From Burkholderiales bacterium (GTDB lineage: Bacteria; Pseudomonadota; Gammaproteobacteria; Burkholderiales; SG8-39), in assembly GCA_014860355.1 (NCBI GenBank), contig JACZJV010000009.1, forward strand, positions 1-64,000: a DNA stretch of 64,000 nt. Reading direction: 5' to 3'. The translations under genes and the position numbers were made by a program. Below are positions 28 to 26,000 of this stretch, in pieces. The first letter of the stretch is position 1. Every line of letters starts with the position of its first letter. Below the pieces are notes generated by a model that worked only from the letters and a program-made list of their open reading frames with translations, searched no databases and was not told the origin of the DNA.

Positions 28-1719
28 TCAGCTGAGCCCCCATACCTGGGACAGATACTTCCAGTTGATGAAGTAATACAGTACGAATGCCACCAGAAAC
101 ACCATCGCCAGGGAAAACGTGCCTGGCGCGGCGAAGCCGGCGGACCCATGTCCCTGGAGCGCGACATTGGAGGGGACCACCGGAATGGGCACGGTCTCCT
201 GCTTGTGCGCGCCCGCGTCCAATTTCTTGCCCCACAGGAGCGAGCCGACGGTAATGTAGATATACAGCGCGCCGCCGACAATGGCTACCACTCCCGAGAT
301 TCCGACCAGGCCCATCATCAAATAGGCGGCGCCGGGAAACTCATAGGCGAACGGAGAACCGCCCATGGCCATGTCCCAATGGCGGCGGGAGACGCCCAGC
401 GTTCCCGCACCCATCATCACCAGAACGAAAAAGTACATCGACAGGCCGAACAAATAAGGCTGCAGCTTCGCCAGGCCCGGGCTGATCATTTCACGCTTGA
501 ACAGCACCGGTATCAGGAAATAAGTCAGCGACATGAACGAGAGCGAGGTGCCGATCACCACCGTGGCGTGGAAGTGACCGGGGACGTAGATGGTGTTGTG
601 AATGATCATGTTCAGCTGTTCCGTACCCATCATCACGCCGGAGATGCCGCCCAGGAATCCGAAGCCGATCAGGGAGATGAACATGCCTGAGAACACCGGA
701 TTGCCCCAGGGCGCTTTTCTGAGCCATTCGAACAGACCTTTGGTGAATCCCTTTTCGCGTTGTGCCACCTCGATGGCGCCCGGAATGGTGAGGCCGTGAA
801 TCATGGACGCGAGCACCGCGAAGTACATGAAGTAGCTGGTATTGACCACCTTCCATTCGGTACTCAGACCGGGGTCCGCCAGCAGGTGGTGCGCGCTCGC
901 CAGTTGCAGGAACAGGATGTAGAGCAGGAAGGCGCCGCGGCTGACGCGCTCGGACATCGGCTTGGCGCCAAAGCAGATGGCGGCGATGGCATACCAGATC
1001 GAAATATGCGCGGCTACATTGATCTGCTGCGAGGAATGGCCGAAGGCCCACCAGATGGTGCGATACACCAGCGGATCCACCTCCTTGACGACACCAATCG
1101 ACATGAGGAAGGTGGGGATCAGGATAATCGCGCCCGAGGCGATGGTGAACACGGCGATGATGGCGGCCGTGATTGCGCCGAAGGTCACCAACGGCACCGA
1201 GCCTTGGTAGGTCTTCTCATTCTTCGCAATGACGAGCGTGCCGAAGAACACGAAGCAACCGACCAGTGCGCCCACCGCGAATAGGATCAATCCGAGGTAG
1301 AACGCCGGCTCGGCCATCATTGGCACGTAGGAGGTCATCATCACGCTCGATGCGCCCCTGAACACCGCGACGTTGGTGGTGACCGAACCGATCAGCATCA
1401 AGGCGAAGCCCAGCCAGGCCACTCTGGGCGTGGCGATGCGGCAGCGCAGCAGGGTCGAGGAGCAGAAATAGAGGACGGCGATCTCGAAGAAAATGATCCA
1501 GAAGATCAGCATGTCGATGCCATGGGCGGTCAGCACCATGTAGAAATTGTCGGCGGCGAGCCAGTGCACCGCAGGCCAGCGGGTCAGTACCACGCCCACG
1601 GCGAGTATGCCTCCGACCAGCAACCAGACCACTGCCGCGACGGCATTGGCCAGCATCAGTTTTTCGGCTTGGGTGTCGAACTGCAGCCCGGAGCGCGGGC
1701 AGGTGCGGTAAGTAGTCAT
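28..1719 (-). CDS. cbaA: B-family (ba3-type) heme-copper oxidase subunit I, possibly a nitric oxide reductase
   Basis: This is a 563-residue membrane protein with about 13 hydrophobic segments. Metal ligands are visible: His66 (low-spin heme), His228 and His277-His278 (CuB), and the HxH pair His382/His384 that binds the two hemes. In oxygen reductases of this family the first CuB His is followed at +4 by the Tyr of the His-Tyr cofactor; here the run is GHSSQQ and position 232 is Gln. That points to NO reduction (the CuA-NOR type) rather than oxygen reduction, although the overall family is certain only as B-type oxidase. The start follows a GGGGGAGG ribosome site and lies 13 bases after the subunit II stop, in one operon with it. 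Confidence 0.9.
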   Translation of the reverse strand: MTTYRTCPRSGLQFDTQAEKLMLANAVAAVVWLLVGGILAVGVVLTRWPAVHWLAADNFYMVLTAHGIDMLIFWIIFFEIAVLYFCSSTLLRCRIATPRVAWLGFALMLIGSVTTNVAVFRGASSVMMTSYVPMMAEPAFYLGLILFAVGALVGCFVFFGTLVIAKNEKTYQGSVPLVTFGAITAAIIAVFTIASGAIILIPTFLMSIGVVKEVDPLVYRTIWWAFGHSSQQINVAAHISIWYAIAAICFGAKPMSERVSRGAFLLYILFLQLASAHHLLADPGLSTEWKVVNTSYFMYFAVLASMIHGLTIPGAIEVAQREKGFTKGLFEWLRKAPWGNPVFSGMFISLIGFGFLGGISGVMMGTEQLNMIIHNTIYVPGHFHATVVIGTSLSFMSLTYFLIPVLFKREMISPGLAKLQPYLFGLSMYFFVLVMMGAGTLGVSRRHWDMAMGGSPFAYEFPGAAYLMMGLVGISGVVAIVGGALYIYITVGSLLWGKKLDAGAHKQETVPIPVVPSNVALQGHGSAGFAAPGTFSLAMVFLVAFVLYYFINWKYLSQVWGLS

Positions 1720-1732
1720 TGGCGCCTCCCCC

Positions 1733-2272
1733 TTACTTGACGTAGATGCGGCCGGCCATATTGGCGTGGCCGATGCCGCAGTATTCGTTGCAGACAATGG
1801 AAAAAATCCCGGACTGATTCGGTGTCACCTTCACGACGTGCTCATATCCCGGTACGACCTGGATATTGATATTGACCGGCTGCAGCGAGAATCCGTGGTT
1901 GTAGTCCATCGAGGTCAGATGCAGGCGATAGGTCTTGTCCTTCTCCAGTTCCAGGACCGGCCACCAATCCCAGAGACGCGCGATGAGATAAACGTCGCTA
2001 CCCGCGGGCGGATGCACCACCGGGATCTTCCTGTCGGTTTCCGTGCGCACGGTGTATTTGTCCACCATGGCCTGCGTCTTCGCCGTGTACATCTCGCGGG
2101 TGGTCTTGTAGGTTTCGGTCGACAGGTTCTGCTTGCCGTAGATATGCCAGCCAACCATCATCGCGAACATGATCATGCACCAGATAAAAGCGATCAGGAT
2201 CCAGGTCCCTTCGACACGATCCAAAGGCTGTTTCCACCAGAGCCGATCTGAAGGCGGCAGGATTGCGCTCAT
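1733..2272 (-). CDS. cbaB: Heme-copper oxidase subunit II, CuA domain
   Basis: This 179-residue protein has one N-terminal transmembrane helix (about residues 20-45) and a periplasmic cupredoxin domain. The CuA site is complete: a His in DYNHGF, then the CNEYCGIGHANM block with two Cys, a His and a Met. It takes electrons from a soluble or lipid-anchored cytochrome c and passes them to subunit I. A GTG codon two codons upstream is possible, but the ATG at 2272 has a GAGGGG site at the right distance. It is transcribed between the 50-residue subunit and subunit I. The c-type cytochrome gene about 450 bases upstream is a plausible electron donor. Confidence 0.92.
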   Translation of the reverse strand: MSAILPPSDRLWWKQPLDRVEGTWILIAFIWCMIMFAMMVGWHIYGKQNLSTETYKTTREMYTAKTQAMVDKYTVRTETDRKIPVVHPPAGSDVYLIARLWDWWPVLELEKDKTYRLHLTSMDYNHGFSLQPVNINIQVVPGYEHVVKVTPNQSGIFSIVCNEYCGIGHANMAGRIYVK

Positions 2273-2317
2273 ATTCACACCCCTCGTTGAAAAGACACGC
2301 GACGCGTCGACCGACGC

Positions 2318-2470
2318 TTATTTGGCAAGCGGAACTGTCAGAATTTCAATGACACCCCAGAGGGTGTAAACCAGCATGGGAACCATGACGCCGAAAAACA
2401 GCAACAGGAAGGGGTTGTCCAGAAATTTCTGCATCAGGGGAATCTGTTCTTCTTGAGCCGGGCTGTTCAT
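2318..2470 (-). CDS. Small single-helix subunit of the ba3-type oxidase (subunit IIa-like)
   Basis: This is a 50-residue ORF: a short polar N-terminus (MNSPAQEEQIP), then FLDNPFLLLFF and one strongly hydrophobic helix running to the C-terminus. It has an excellent AGAGGAGG ribosome site ten bases before ATG and is the first gene of the operon. Two-subunit B-family oxidases such as that of Thermus carry a one-helix subunit IIa in the same position, so the assignment rests on size, topology and position rather than on a diagnostic motif. Confidence 0.75.
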   Translation of the reverse strand: MNSPAQEEQIPLMQKFLDNPFLLLFFGVMVPMLVYTLWGVIEILTVPLAK

Positions 2471-2571: not shown

Positions 2572-2585
2572 TTAACTTAAGTCAA
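2572..2585 (-). promoter_or_regulatory. Possible FNR/DNR-type box upstream of the oxidase operon
   Basis: Read on the minus strand this is TTGACTTAAGTTAA, which matches 7 of 10 fixed positions of the FNR/CRP-like consensus TTGAT-N4-ATCAA. It lies about 100 bases before the first gene of the operon. NO-responsive Dnr/Nnr regulators use such boxes, which would suit an NO reductase. The match is incomplete and could be chance. Confidence 0.3.
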
Positions 2586-2720: not shown

Positions 2721-3119
2721 TTATTTGGCCAGCACCCAATCGACCATCGCCTTCAAGTCGTCGTCGCTGATCTGGCTTGCGGAAATTGGCGGCATTGGTA
2801 TTGAACCGTAGGCGCCTGCACCACCCTCTCGTATTTTCTTCATGAGCATGGCGGCTGCGCCTTGCTCACCTTTGCGCTGTTTAGCGACCTCGGTGTACGA
2901 CGGTCCCAGGATCTTCTTGTCAATCGCGTGGCAACCCGCGCAACCGGCCTTATTCATGATTGCCAGTGCTTTCGTGTCGTCGAGCGAGGCGATCGCAGCG
3001 CTCGGCCCGGCTCCAGCCGCTGGAGCAGGCTGCGGTGCGGCTTGCGGCGGCGGGGCTGGTTTGCCGCAGGCAGATACAATCAACATGGTGAGTGCAGCAA
3101 TCAGTAGCAATCGGTTCAT
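2721..3119 (-). CDS. Lipid-anchored class I cytochrome c
   Basis: This 132-residue protein opens with a lipoprotein signal ending in the lipobox VSAC (Cys18). A Pro/Ala-rich linker (residues 20-40) follows, then a class I cytochrome domain with the heme motif CAGCH at 60-64 and a probable distal Met at 109 in IPMPP. Size and features match c551/c552-type electron carriers. The chosen ATG follows AAGGGA at nine bases and gives a proper signal peptide; the longer reading upstream does not. It points the same way as the oxidase operon and is a likely donor to its CuA domain. A palindromic operator lies about 150 bases upstream. Confidence 0.85.
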   Translation of the reverse strand: MNRLLLIAALTMLIVSACGKPAPPPQAAPQPAPAAGAGPSAAIASLDDTKALAIMNKAGCAGCHAIDKKILGPSYTEVAKQRKGEQGAAAMLMKKIREGGAGAYGSIPMPPISASQISDDDLKAMVDWVLAK

Positions 3120-3286: not shown

Positions 3287-3338
3287 CTAGTCAATCATTT
3301 TCCCAACCCAAAACATGCGTTCCCAAAGCGGCGATCGA

Positions 3339-4079
3339 ATGACCAGCGACGAGAGGCGCGCCGGCGCCAGTCTGGCTGCGCTCCTGGCTTTGCGCATGCT
3401 GGGACTCTTCCTTTACGTCGTGCCGACCGCACCGCGAATCCAAGCAGGCCCGAAAGTGCCGCTGCGCGAAGTACTGCTCGATGCGCAACTGCTGCGGCTC
3501 AATTTCGGCATTTTTTCACTGCACCTGATCCAGATTGCGATGTTCGTAGTCATGCCGGGACTGCTCATCAGCAGCGGTAATCTGTCGCTCACGCAACACT
3601 GGCAGGTCTATCTCGGCACCCTGCTCGCCTCGCTGGTGCCCATGGTGCCGGCAATTATCTATGCCGATAAGCGCGCGAGACTCAAGCCCGTATTCCTGAT
3701 CGCAATCGCGCTGCTAATCATTGCCGAGGCGGGGAGTTTCATGGGAAGGGGGGATTTCATCGTGATCGTCGCGATGATGTGGGTGTTCTTTGTGGCATTC
3801 AACATCCTGGAGGCCAGTCTGCCGTCGCTGGTTTCGCGCGTGGCGCCATCGCGCGCCAAGGGTGCAGCACTGGGTGTCTACACCACGTGCCAGGCGCTCG
3901 GCCTCTTCACGGGTGGCACGGTCGGAGGCTTGCTTGTCGAGCGTGTGGGGGTCGGTGGCGTATTCGCCTTCGGCGCCCTGATTGCAGCGCTCTGGCTGCT
4001 GGTCGCTGCATCGATGCGACTGCCCACGCGGATGCCGAGCTGGGGATTGGCAGTCCCGAGTCGCAGCCTGGGCGCGTAG
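3339..4079 (+). pseudogene. MFS transporter with large internal deletion
   Basis: The reading frame is open (246 residues), but the protein is about 200 residues short for a YajR-like MFS exporter. It begins like the family (SLAALLALRMLGLFL) and then jumps directly to the interdomain linker (VVPTAPR) and the C-terminal half starting at LLRLNFGIFSLH. Helices 2-6 are therefore missing and the junction is in frame. The C-terminal half looks normal. A working 12-helix transporter is not possible; the gene is either a relic or an assembly error. No strong ribosome site is visible and the start is chosen by family likeness. Confidence 0.6.
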
Positions 4080-6160: not shown

Positions 6161-7399
6161 TCAACCCGGCTTGCCGTCGCTGCGTGGGCGCAGGTAAGCC
6201 GGGACGTACTTCCACGCCCAACCGGCAAACGCCGCGAGCCAGGCGAGGATGGCTGCGGTTATGAACCACGCGAACGCTTGCGGCCAGAGTTCTGATCCCA
6301 GGCGCAGCATGGTGGCGGTCTGCAGCAGCCAGAACAGCCGCCAGGTCGCATCGTCGGCGGTGAGGCTGCTGCCGGAATGGCCCCGGGTGACGCGCGTCAC
6401 CATGGCGAACATCACCGATGCGGCGAAACCCATTGTCACTGCGTGCAGTGGTGCCAGTCCGAGTCCGCGATTGCCCGTCAGGGCCAGCGCGCCGTCCAGC
6501 GCGGACAGCGCAAACGCTATGCCGAGCCAGACAAAGCCCAGGTGCAGCATCGCGAGCAGGCGGATCCGCAGGCTGTGCAGCAGCCCCCAGCGCAGGCTGA
6601 GCCAGAGGAGGAATACTGCCGCGGGCGCATCCACGGCCCAGGCGTAGGGTCGCAAGTCTGCAATTTCAATGGCGCCATGGGCTACGCAAGCGGCGAGGAA
6701 GCACCACAGCACCCAGAACGGGCGCCAGGCGGCGATGGATGGCAGCACCGCGGCGGTAAAAAAAGGCAGCATGCGGTGTACCACGATCAGGAATGCCGGA
6801 AGGGCGAAGCACCACAGCCCGGCGACGATCACCCAGATGAACCAGCGCAGATCGCCGCTGAAGCACAGTAGCGCATAGCATGCCAGGCCGGCGACGCCCG
6901 GCAGCATGAATGCCAGAACCAGCTTGGCGTGCCTGCGGTCTTGCGCCGTGCTCTGGCGGATCAGGCGCGCGAAAATCAGCAGGTAGCGCGCCCAGCACGC
7001 AGCCAACAGCAGCGCTGCTGCGCCCGACGCGGGTATGGAAACGATGGACAGCACGGTGATCGAAGCGCCGCCGGCGAACGCGAACAGCGCCGTGGGCAGC
7101 AGCTCCGACGCGCTCGGGCCCTTCACGCCGAGCCAGGACGGGCCGGCGGTGAACAGGAAGCCGAACATGTACATCGGAATGAAGGTGTAGAGCATCGCCG
7201 TCGCGTGCACCAGAGTCGGCGCAAGCGCAGCCGGCAGGGCTGCCCCGAACAGTCGCAGCACAAGAACCACGCACCACCAGGTCGAAGCGAGCAGCAACAG
7301 CAGCGACGCGAGGAAGAAGAACAGCCGGTGCGGCGCCGCTTTGATCCAGACCAGGCCGGGTGCTGCCGGCGCCGGAATTGCGTTTGCTTCAGCCGACAT
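6161..7399 (-). CDS. nnrS: NnrS-family heme-copper membrane protein
   Basis: This 412-residue protein is predicted to have about 12 transmembrane helices. Family marks are the N-terminal PHRLFFFLASLL, the segment FGFLFTAGPSWLGV, and the C-terminal LHAVTMGFAASVMFAMVTRVTRGHSG, which carries conserved His residues. NnrS proteins bind heme and copper and protect against nitrosative stress in denitrifiers; they are not NO reductases themselves. The start overlaps the end of the SirB2-like gene by 11 bases. With the unusual heme-copper oxidase upstream it supports an NO-related role for the region. Confidence 0.9.
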   Translation of the reverse strand: MSAEANAIPAPAAPGLVWIKAAPHRLFFFLASLLLLLASTWWCVVLVLRLFGAALPAALAPTLVHATAMLYTFIPMYMFGFLFTAGPSWLGVKGPSASELLPTALFAFAGGASITVLSIVSIPASGAAALLLAACWARYLLIFARLIRQSTAQDRRHAKLVLAFMLPGVAGLACYALLCFSGDLRWFIWVIVAGLWCFALPAFLIVVHRMLPFFTAAVLPSIAAWRPFWVLWCFLAACVAHGAIEIADLRPYAWAVDAPAAVFLLWLSLRWGLLHSLRIRLLAMLHLGFVWLGIAFALSALDGALALTGNRGLGLAPLHAVTMGFAASVMFAMVTRVTRGHSGSSLTADDATWRLFWLLQTATMLRLGSELWPQAFAWFITAAILAWLAAFAGWAWKYVPAYLRPRSDGKPG

Positions 7400-24443: not shown

Positions 24444-25415
24444 ATGGCAACGAGCCAAGGGACAATGCCGGATGCGGTGCTCCCAGCCAGCGGTGCCGGC
24501 TCCCCACCGCCAGCCGCAGCCGACCAGGCGGGCGTCCTGGTATTCCGGCAAGGCCCCGATTCGCCATCTCCAATCGACTACGACATCGCCGCGCAACGCG
24601 ACACCCCGGCGGCCCAAGCGGTGAGCGGTGACGCAAAAGTGGGGCAGCTCGCGGACGCCACGCCCGACACGATGACGTTGCACACCAGGGATGCGTTTCG
24701 CATGTTCACCGGTCGTCCCGCGGATGCCGATGCGGGCCTGGCGCCGATTCCCGGCGCAAGGCGATTTGCGGCGATCCTGAATTCCATCTGGCGCCTGTCG
24801 GCGAACGATAATCCGTACGCCGACTGGCTCCTGGTCCGGATGTACGCCGGTCTGGTCGCGATCCGCGCCCATCTGAGCCGCGCGGTCGCGCGCCAGCAGG
24901 CTGCGATCGATCTGCTCAAGGGCAAAGGCCTGGCGCTGTCCGTCATGGTTTCGCAAAGCCCGAAGCTTGTGGATCTCGGGTTTCGCAGCCCCTACGGCTA
25001 CGCCACCGCGGAGGCGATCGTCGAATTCGATTACTACGTACGCGTGATCAAGACGCTCATTCACAAGGATCGCATGAGCGACCAGCAGGGCAGGGCGGCG
25101 ATCCGCGAAGTCGGCCGCGAGATGCGCGCCTTGTTCCTTGGTCCGATCCGCTGGGAGCGGCAGCTCCTGCGCGAGGATCTGCGGCAATTGAGCCGCAGCG
25201 ATTTCCTCCCGGGGGCGGACGAGCTCGCGCGCGCGCGTGTGCGTGCCGCGGTCGCTCTGTTCGGTGAGTTGCCGCGAAGCATCTTTACCGGAGCAGAGGC
25301 GCCGCGCCATACGCGCCGTAGCCTGAAGCTCACCGATGCCGAATTGCAGCTACTGGAACAGGCGACGCTCAGCGCTGCCGTAGTGGCCGGGCAGCAGGAC
25401 ACGGAACTGCTGTGA
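24444..25415 (+). CDS. Integrating conjugative element protein, PFL_4669 (TIGR03761-like) family
   Basis: This 323-residue protein has an Ala/Pro-rich N-terminus and then DTMTLHTRDAFRMFTGR and NPYADWLLVRMYAGL, the marks I associate with the PFL_4669/TIGR03761 family found only in integrative conjugative elements. Function is not known. The ATG follows AGGAATTCGAT. It sits between the replication-like genes and ssb, in the usual order of the element class. Confidence 0.75.
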   Translation: MATSQGTMPDAVLPASGAGSPPPAAADQAGVLVFRQGPDSPSPIDYDIAAQRDTPAAQAVSGDAKVGQLADATPDTMTLHTRDAFRMFTGRPADADAGLAPIPGARRFAAILNSIWRLSANDNPYADWLLVRMYAGLVAIRAHLSRAVARQQAAIDLLKGKGLALSVMVSQSPKLVDLGFRSPYGYATAEAIVEFDYYVRVIKTLIHKDRMSDQQGRAAIREVGREMRALFLGPIRWERQLLREDLRQLSRSDFLPGADELARARVRAAVALFGELPRSIFTGAEAPRHTRRSLKLTDAELQLLEQATLSAAVVAGQQDTELL

Positions 25416-25460
25416 GCGCGCGGCGGAGGAGCATCGCATTTCAGCACCGTGGAAGCGCCC

Positions 25461-25487
25461 CGGGAAATGCGTTGCAACGGTTTCCCG
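25461..25487 (+). repeat. Nested hairpin upstream of ssb
   Basis: CGGGAAA pairs with TTTCCCG, with CGTT/AACG nested inside. It lies between the PFL_4669-type gene and ssb. No T-run follows. It may be a processing or leader structure. Confidence 0.4.
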
Positions 25488-25604
25488 TGGAACACCACGC
25501 AATAGCGCGGCGGGTCGGCGCGGCGATCGTGAAAGTGCATCGCGCGCATGGAGCAAGGCCGCTCGGCGTGTTTCAGTGAGTCATTCAACCAAACGGAGGT
25601 GTAT

Positions 25605-26000
25605 ATGCCCAATGCGTTTCGTGGTACCGGCAATGCAGCTGAGGTGCCGCTCTTGAAAACTGTCCTGGTCGGCGACGAGGAACGCCAGGTCGCCGAGCTT
25701 CGGGTGTACTTCGACGAGAAGCGCAAGGACGGCAACGGCGACCTGCAGCGGTCCGGCGGGTTCTGGCTCGACGTCAATGTCTGGGGCGATCGACATGCAG
25801 CCGAAGTTGCGCAGATCGTGAGAAAGGGCGCGCGTGTGCATGTCATCGGGCGGCTTGCCGAAAGCAAGTGGATTGTGACCGAGACCGGCGAGGAGCGCCG
25901 CGCCCTGTATCTGAACGCGGACCGTCTGTTCCTGAGCCTGACACGGCTGGCCGAGGCCAGGTTCGAGCCACGCCGGGAAAGCTCCGACGCACGGGCGTGA
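25605..26000 (+). CDS. ssb: Single-stranded DNA-binding protein
   Basis: This 131-residue OB-fold protein is shorter than chromosomal SSB (about 170) and lacks the acidic C-terminal tip. Recognisable parts are GFWLDVNVWGDRHAAEVAQIVRKGARVHVIGRL (the strand-helix-strand core) and SKWIVTETGEERRALYLNADRLFLSL. It fits the SSB encoded by elements of this class. The ATG follows GGAGG at six bases. Confidence 0.75.
   Translation: MPNAFRGTGNAAEVPLLKTVLVGDEERQVAELRVYFDEKRKDGNGDLQRSGGFWLDVNVWGDRHAAEVAQIVRKGARVHVIGRLAESKWIVTETGEERRALYLNADRLFLSLTRLAEARFEPRRESSDARA

Follow-up and report, generated by a model that had tools for sequence, protein, structure and literature searches.

A probable eNOR-type nitric oxide reductase operon with glutamine at the cofactor-tyrosine position in a Burkholderiales contig

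A minus-strand operon at positions 28-2470 of the stretch analysed here (64,000 nucleotides of a Burkholderiales contig, hereafter the window) very probably encodes eNOR, a B-family-derived heme-copper nitric oxide (NO) reductase with a CuA subunit. The placement is made by a glutamine signature in the predicted active site together with grouping with other Gln-type enzymes. eNOR, reportedly the subject of Hemp and Gennis 2008 and Murali et al. 2024, is an already described family whose published members include those of Natronomonas, Ardenticatena and Rhodothermus marinus, the last of them a characterised enzyme. As an enzyme the window's eNOR is therefore ordinary and the finding is of modest interest; the more unusual lead, and a testable one, is a conserved partner, a heme-copper-oxidase (HCO) homologue that is apparently CuB-less, encoded beside eNOR in relatives.

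The active site of subunit I and its operon

The features of the operon and its surroundings are as follows.

28-1719, minus strand: predicted eNOR-type heme-copper subunit I, 563 aa, ATG at 1719 (Pfam COX1, 213.9 bits)
1024-1041, minus strand: GHSSQQ motif of subunit I, residues 227-232, with CuB ligand H228 at 1036-1038 and Gln232 at 1024-1026 in place of the cross-linked Tyr
1733-2278, minus strand: CuA subunit II, 181 aa from a GTG start (PF00116, 29.6 bits); an ATG at 2272 matches the start in close relatives
2318-2470, minus strand: small ORF upstream of subunit II, 50 aa with one hydrophobic stretch (MNSPAQEEQ...)
2572-2585, minus strand: palindrome TTGACTTAAGTTAA resembling an FNR/Dnr box, some 100 bp ahead of the small ORF
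2721-3119, minus strand: c-type cytochrome, probably a lipoprotein and a possible electron donor (PF00034, 35.1 bits)
6161-7399, minus strand: NnrS family protein (PF05940, 210.3 bits)

Subunit I matches 7deg, which we take to be the Aquifex subunit I (E 2.9e-46), and Thermus ba3 oxidases in phmmer searches. MAFFT alignment, in Thermus thermophilus ba3 numbering, pairs H72, H233, H282, H283, H384 and H386 with H66, H228, H277, H278, H382 and H384 of subunit I, so that all six His ligands of heme and CuB are present, given the roles that we assume for the Thermus residues. The same alignment and that of phmmer both pair ba3 Y237 with Q232, which lies at H+4 from H228 and is encoded by CAG at 1024-1026 in the subunit I reading frame. 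The cross-linked Tyr at H+4, a feature of the B-family oxygen reductase ba3, is absent from subunit I, with Gln in its place; oxygen reductases split O2 by oxidising this Tyr. The first-pass annotation of the window had reported a GHSSQQ motif with Gln232 at the cofactor-Tyr position within 1020-1060, and its residue number and coordinates are exact, the codon falling inside that interval. Its further claim that the other metal ligands and a CuA subunit are retained is borne out by H66, H277, H278, H382 and H384 and by the CuA motif. In subunit II, which adjoins subunit I as the cupredoxin/CuA subunit does in eNOR, alignment with relatives and with ba3-type subunit II recovers the CuA ligands CNEYCGIGHANM and, upstream of them, HGF. 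The active-site Glu without a CuA subunit that characterises cNOR and qNOR is not found in this operon, where GHSSQQ and CuA are present, and neither is the active-site Asn of bNOR and sNOR, subunit I having Gln232.

Several positions that we take to form the K-type channel of the Thermus enzyme are also recognisable in the alignment. Y248, S309 and T315 of ba3 are retained as Y243, S305 and T311, while T312 is replaced by His308 and Y244 and Y237 are lost; a Glu near the N terminus of subunit II is common to ba3-type subunit II. These putative channel residues would be compatible with the single channel predicted for eNOR but are no proof of pumping.

A working scheme can be drawn on this basis. 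Electrons would reach CuA from a donor in the periplasm, for instance a c-type cytochrome, and would then move to the low-spin heme (H66/H384) and on to the binuclear centre of high-spin heme (H382) and CuB (H228, H277 and H278). There two NO molecules would be coupled to N2O, with Gln232 standing where oxygen reductases have the Tyr. The modified K-type channel (the subunit II Glu, Y243, S305, H308 and T311) could deliver protons and perhaps contribute to energy conservation. In the window's lineage the enzyme would probably serve to remove NO arising from Nar-dependent nitrate metabolism or from neighbours.

Conservation of the signature and family placement

The residues that define the site are strictly conserved among relatives. 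Q231, Q232 and the six ligand His are kept in every one of the 129 loci that were fetched with matches at 50% identity or more, an overlapping set with 109 distinct subunit I sequences. In a wider alignment Q231, Q232, N234 and H308 occur in 23/23 Gln-type rows versus 0/22 Tyr-type rows, and Tyr stands at H+4 in all 22 ba3-type rows. Given this conservation, the Gln substitution is not due to chance. The eNOR gene is common: at least 557 stretches encode a relative in one genome_contigs scan, and the best 80 of these all carry the Gln, their titles being mostly Betaproteobacteria. Viral contigs yielded no relative. One departure among the ligands was seen in two Thermus plasmid eNORs (L137:7983-9665 and L138:7983-9668), which read GHFK, with Lys at the H384 position of the low-spin heme ligand, where His is found in the remaining 21 Gln-type rows.

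In a 47-row tree, one branch (100/100) sets the 23 Gln rows apart and another (100/100) does so for the 22 Tyr-bearing B-family rows; the Gln/Tyr label needs a single change on the tree. Subunit I groups (100/100) with the Gln-type enzymes of Thermus (two plasmids), Thermomicrobium and Defluviimonas. A quick tree of 56 rows that includes second HCOs (see below) gives the same picture, although the Gln group is less well supported there (SH-aLRT 85). Both trees gave long-branch warnings. Their input comprised 15 of the 29 sequences of L007-L035 and 3 of the 80 genome_contigs sequences; it omitted L149, which has no usable ORF, L157, a fragment, and the partial second-HCO ORFs L101 and L092, and was drawn up without the Natronomonas, Ardenticatena and Rhodothermus marinus eNORs and without a verified bNOR.

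We file subunit I as eNOR because Gln at the active site is the published signature of eNOR subunit I (PMC8756737). Table A4 of that paper gives the active-site residue as Q for eNOR, N for sNOR and CuANor, D for gNOR, and E for cNOR and qNOR. The sections of the same paper that deal with eNOR report it from Alpha-, Beta-, Gamma- and Deltaproteobacteria and include a Thermus sequence in their alignment, and a statement in PMC11388526, citing its reference 22, has eNOR biochemically characterised. The signature residue and the Gln-type grouping thus both argue for the earlier proposal of an oxidase-derived, CuA-type NO reductase lineage that lacks the cofactor Tyr. It had also been anticipated that such operons would be annotated automatically as oxidases, and PLSDB indeed calls four fetched Gln-type relatives “cbb3-type cytochrome c oxidase subunit I”. 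Since automatic annotation reads eNOR-type enzymes as terminal oxidases, genomes are under-called for N2O production.

Neighbouring genes, nitrite reductases and a second HCO

The conserved surroundings of subunit I are narrow. By tblastn, subunit II is matched in 78/80 genome_contigs loci and 20/20 G loci, and the small ORF in 77/80 and 20/20; matches to the c-type cytochrome (13/80 and 0/20) and to NnrS (1/80 and 0/20) are fewer, counts to be read with many relative loci being too short to reach further genes. The c-type cytochrome named as a neighbour in the first-pass annotation is real, with its PF00034 domain. The NnrS gene is real too, separated from the operon by five genes (c-type cytochrome, MFS, MarR, Yip1 and FTHF cyclo-ligase), but as an argument for NO detoxification it is weak, because its proximity is conserved in only 1/80 and 0/20 loci and because in Mesorhizobium an annotated NnrS also neighbours a Tyr-type oxidase; we therefore reject it as a conserved neighbour. 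Similarly, the FNR/Dnr-like box exists at 2572-2585, but its occurrence is near chance for the whole window (expected mean 0.41, with at least one box in 23 of 100 shuffles), and it was set aside as evidence. Between these genes, the MFS-family ORF at 3315-4076 has only 254 aa and is possibly a truncated transporter, with a counterpart in 1/80 and 0/20 relative loci.

Co-occurrence with NirS is a stronger context than either NnrS or the FNR box. Among 369 genomes of the class, eNOR was found in 34 (three of them with fragments only) and a NirS-type match (E <= 1e-60) in 73. Such a match occurs in 30/34 eNOR genomes versus 43/335 others (Fisher p 7e-20, kinship not corrected), and with a stricter cut (E <= 1e-140) in 21/34 versus 19/335 (p 7e-15, kinship again not corrected); we chose both thresholds ourselves, and PF02239 also catches NirN/NirF-like paralogues. 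In genomes G342, G227, G014, G268, G157 and G167 eNOR and a strong NirS match are no more than about 10 kb apart. In Thermus TTHNAR1 the genes after eNOR encode an Rrf2 regulator and a DUF542 protein, and an annotated nitrite reductase lies within 5 kb. An Ardenticatena eNOR is described in an operon with nirK in the account given in PMC4653789. Seven named relatives are mixed in this respect: NirS is found in the genomes of L064, L065 and L067, no NirS match in those of L056-L059, and no NirK over the cut-off in any of the seven, the completeness of these genomes being unstated.

The window's own genome has one partial NirS match (104 residues, 40.4 bits against a Pfam cut-off of 25.5) and no full-length NirS; NirK is not found over the cut-off, nor NosZ with either NosZ profile, and NapA is below its cut-off. 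It does carry a full narG (G000:C50:14549-18253) and, about 6 kb away on the same contig, a qNOR-like gene (24550-25881, L005) that reads HLWVEGFFE. A role in denitrification does not follow for this lineage, because the window's genome and those of L056-L059 are without full-length NirS and without NirK over the cut-off. NO removal is likelier here than a full denitrification chain, since full-length NirS is missing and NirK and NosZ do not exceed their cut-offs, but narG and qNOR are present. The window's genome adds a case of eNOR with narG and a qNOR-like gene and with no recognisable nitrite or nitrous oxide reductase.

The window's contig stops at base 1, and L056, which is 99% identical, was therefore used for the genes downstream of eNOR.

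L056, downstream of eNOR: heme O synthase; SCO protein
L056:11536-13308: fusion protein joining cytochrome b, 4Fe-4S clusters and a FlpD/MvhD domain
L056, in the eNOR cluster: 167-aa protein with no Pfam family
L056:13804-15186: second HCO, 461 aa, COX1 family (43.1 bits, cut-off 34.8)
L056:15186-17066: cytochrome b fused to 2Fe-2S and to an FAD/NAD reductase

A relative of the second HCO is a 471-aa ORF ending at L037:15247. Where at least 6 kb of downstream sequence is available, the second HCO is found on the same strand as eNOR in 57/60 genome_contigs loci and 12/18 G loci (of 20 fetched). Across 78 second-HCO sequences H66, H228, Q231, H382 and H384 are kept in every one, and the Q232 position is Phe in 75. 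At the H277 and H278 positions, in a region of low-identity alignment, His occurs in 0/78, so to judge from these columns the protein appears to be without two CuB ligands; another residue may act as a CuB ligand, given the low identity and some His within eight columns of these positions in 32/78 sequences. With the set cut at E <= 2e-50, 45 of the 369 sampled genomes have the second HCO, 27 of them together with eNOR, 10 with NirS but not eNOR and 8 with neither. Seven of the 34 eNOR genomes are without it, the window's included: in that assembly, whose contig ends there, the only match is eNOR itself (E 1.9e-14).

We tentatively suggest that in Betaproteobacteria eNOR could be part of a larger respiratory module (heme O synthase, SCO, the cytochrome b-4Fe-4S-FlpD/MvhD protein, the 167-aa protein and the second HCO), with the apparently CuB-less partner working with eNOR in, for example, electron entry or NO sensing. 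A narrow literature search on gene context found no description of the second HCO or of the module and, among the papers listed, no mention of MvhD; the cytochrome b-MvhD fusion may be published nonetheless.

Alternative readings and comparison with known systems

The best-surviving alternative, although an unlikely one, is an oxygen reductase of high affinity that dispenses with the cross-linked Tyr and uses another donor, such as Tyr267 or a water at Gln232. Such an enzyme would be consistent with the conserved CuA and metal ligands and with the retention of most K-channel positions, and the part of PMC6967387 concerned with Nitrosomonas europaea sNOR makes a terminal-oxidase case for that enzyme from transcription data. 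However, the Tyr is missing in 129/129 loci, eNOR is associated with nirS across the class, and by motifs the window's genome already has two A-type oxidases and one cbb3 oxidase. A replacement Tyr could in principle come from another helix, which the first-pass annotation had named as the finding that would count against its reading. In cbb3 oxidases the Tyr comes from helix VII, six residues ahead of the His pair, as it does in the cbb3-type gene of the window's genome; the corresponding position in subunit I is Leu271, and the alignment places no Tyr there. This comparison rests on alignment because the AlphaFold2 model of subunit I (37 close homologues, mean pLDDT 55.6) was of too low quality for an assessment of the active site. 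Tyr267, likewise on helix VII and four residues ahead of the position of the cbb3 Tyr, is present in 23/23 Gln-type rows versus 0/22 Tyr-type rows, which have Phe, Leu or Ile; this clade-specific residue may have a redox role.

That the protein senses NO or redox state, or has some other non-respiratory function after descent from an oxidase, is very improbable. Its clustering in relatives with the second, apparently CuB-less HCO could be read in this way, but the full set of active-site and CuA ligands is under strict conservation, and PMC11388526 contains the statement that an eNOR has been characterised as an NO reductase. Least probable of all is the first-pass suggestion that the nearest family is the Bacillus azotoformans CuA-NOR (bNOR), a B-family relative that likewise has a CuA subunit (PMC11388526; PMC8756737, Table A4), since Table A4 lists Asn for CuANor and Gln for eNOR, and the passages of PMC11388526 on bNOR report it from Bacillota only. 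Membership of sNOR was rejected together with that of bNOR, the listed residue being Asn for both and Gln here.

The preferred reading therefore remains eNOR, from which no feature was found to separate the window's enzyme. The two share the active-site Gln, the cupredoxin/CuA subunit II immediately upstream, B-family kinship, the putative channel residues, annotation as an oxidase and occurrence in Betaproteobacteria; the window's lineage shows no full-length NirS and no NirK over the cut-off. Relative to the two Thermus plasmid eNORs the window has His, not their Lys, at the H384 position. The window's enzyme resembles bNOR of B. azotoformans in having a CuA subunit and one listed channel, in coming from the B family and in lacking the Tyr, and differs from it in active-site residue and in reported taxonomic range. 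The sNOR of Nitrosomonas (norSY) is similar in its B-type subunit I, cupredoxin subunit II and lack of an active-site Tyr (PMC8756737, Table A4), but the entries for sNOR in that paper give Asn and list no proton channel. Finally, Thermus thermophilus ba3 shares homology over 440 residues, the His ligands, CuA and most K-channel positions with the window's enzyme, which differs from it by the substitutions Y237 to Q232, V236 to Q231, W239 to N234, T312 to H308 and Y244 to I239.
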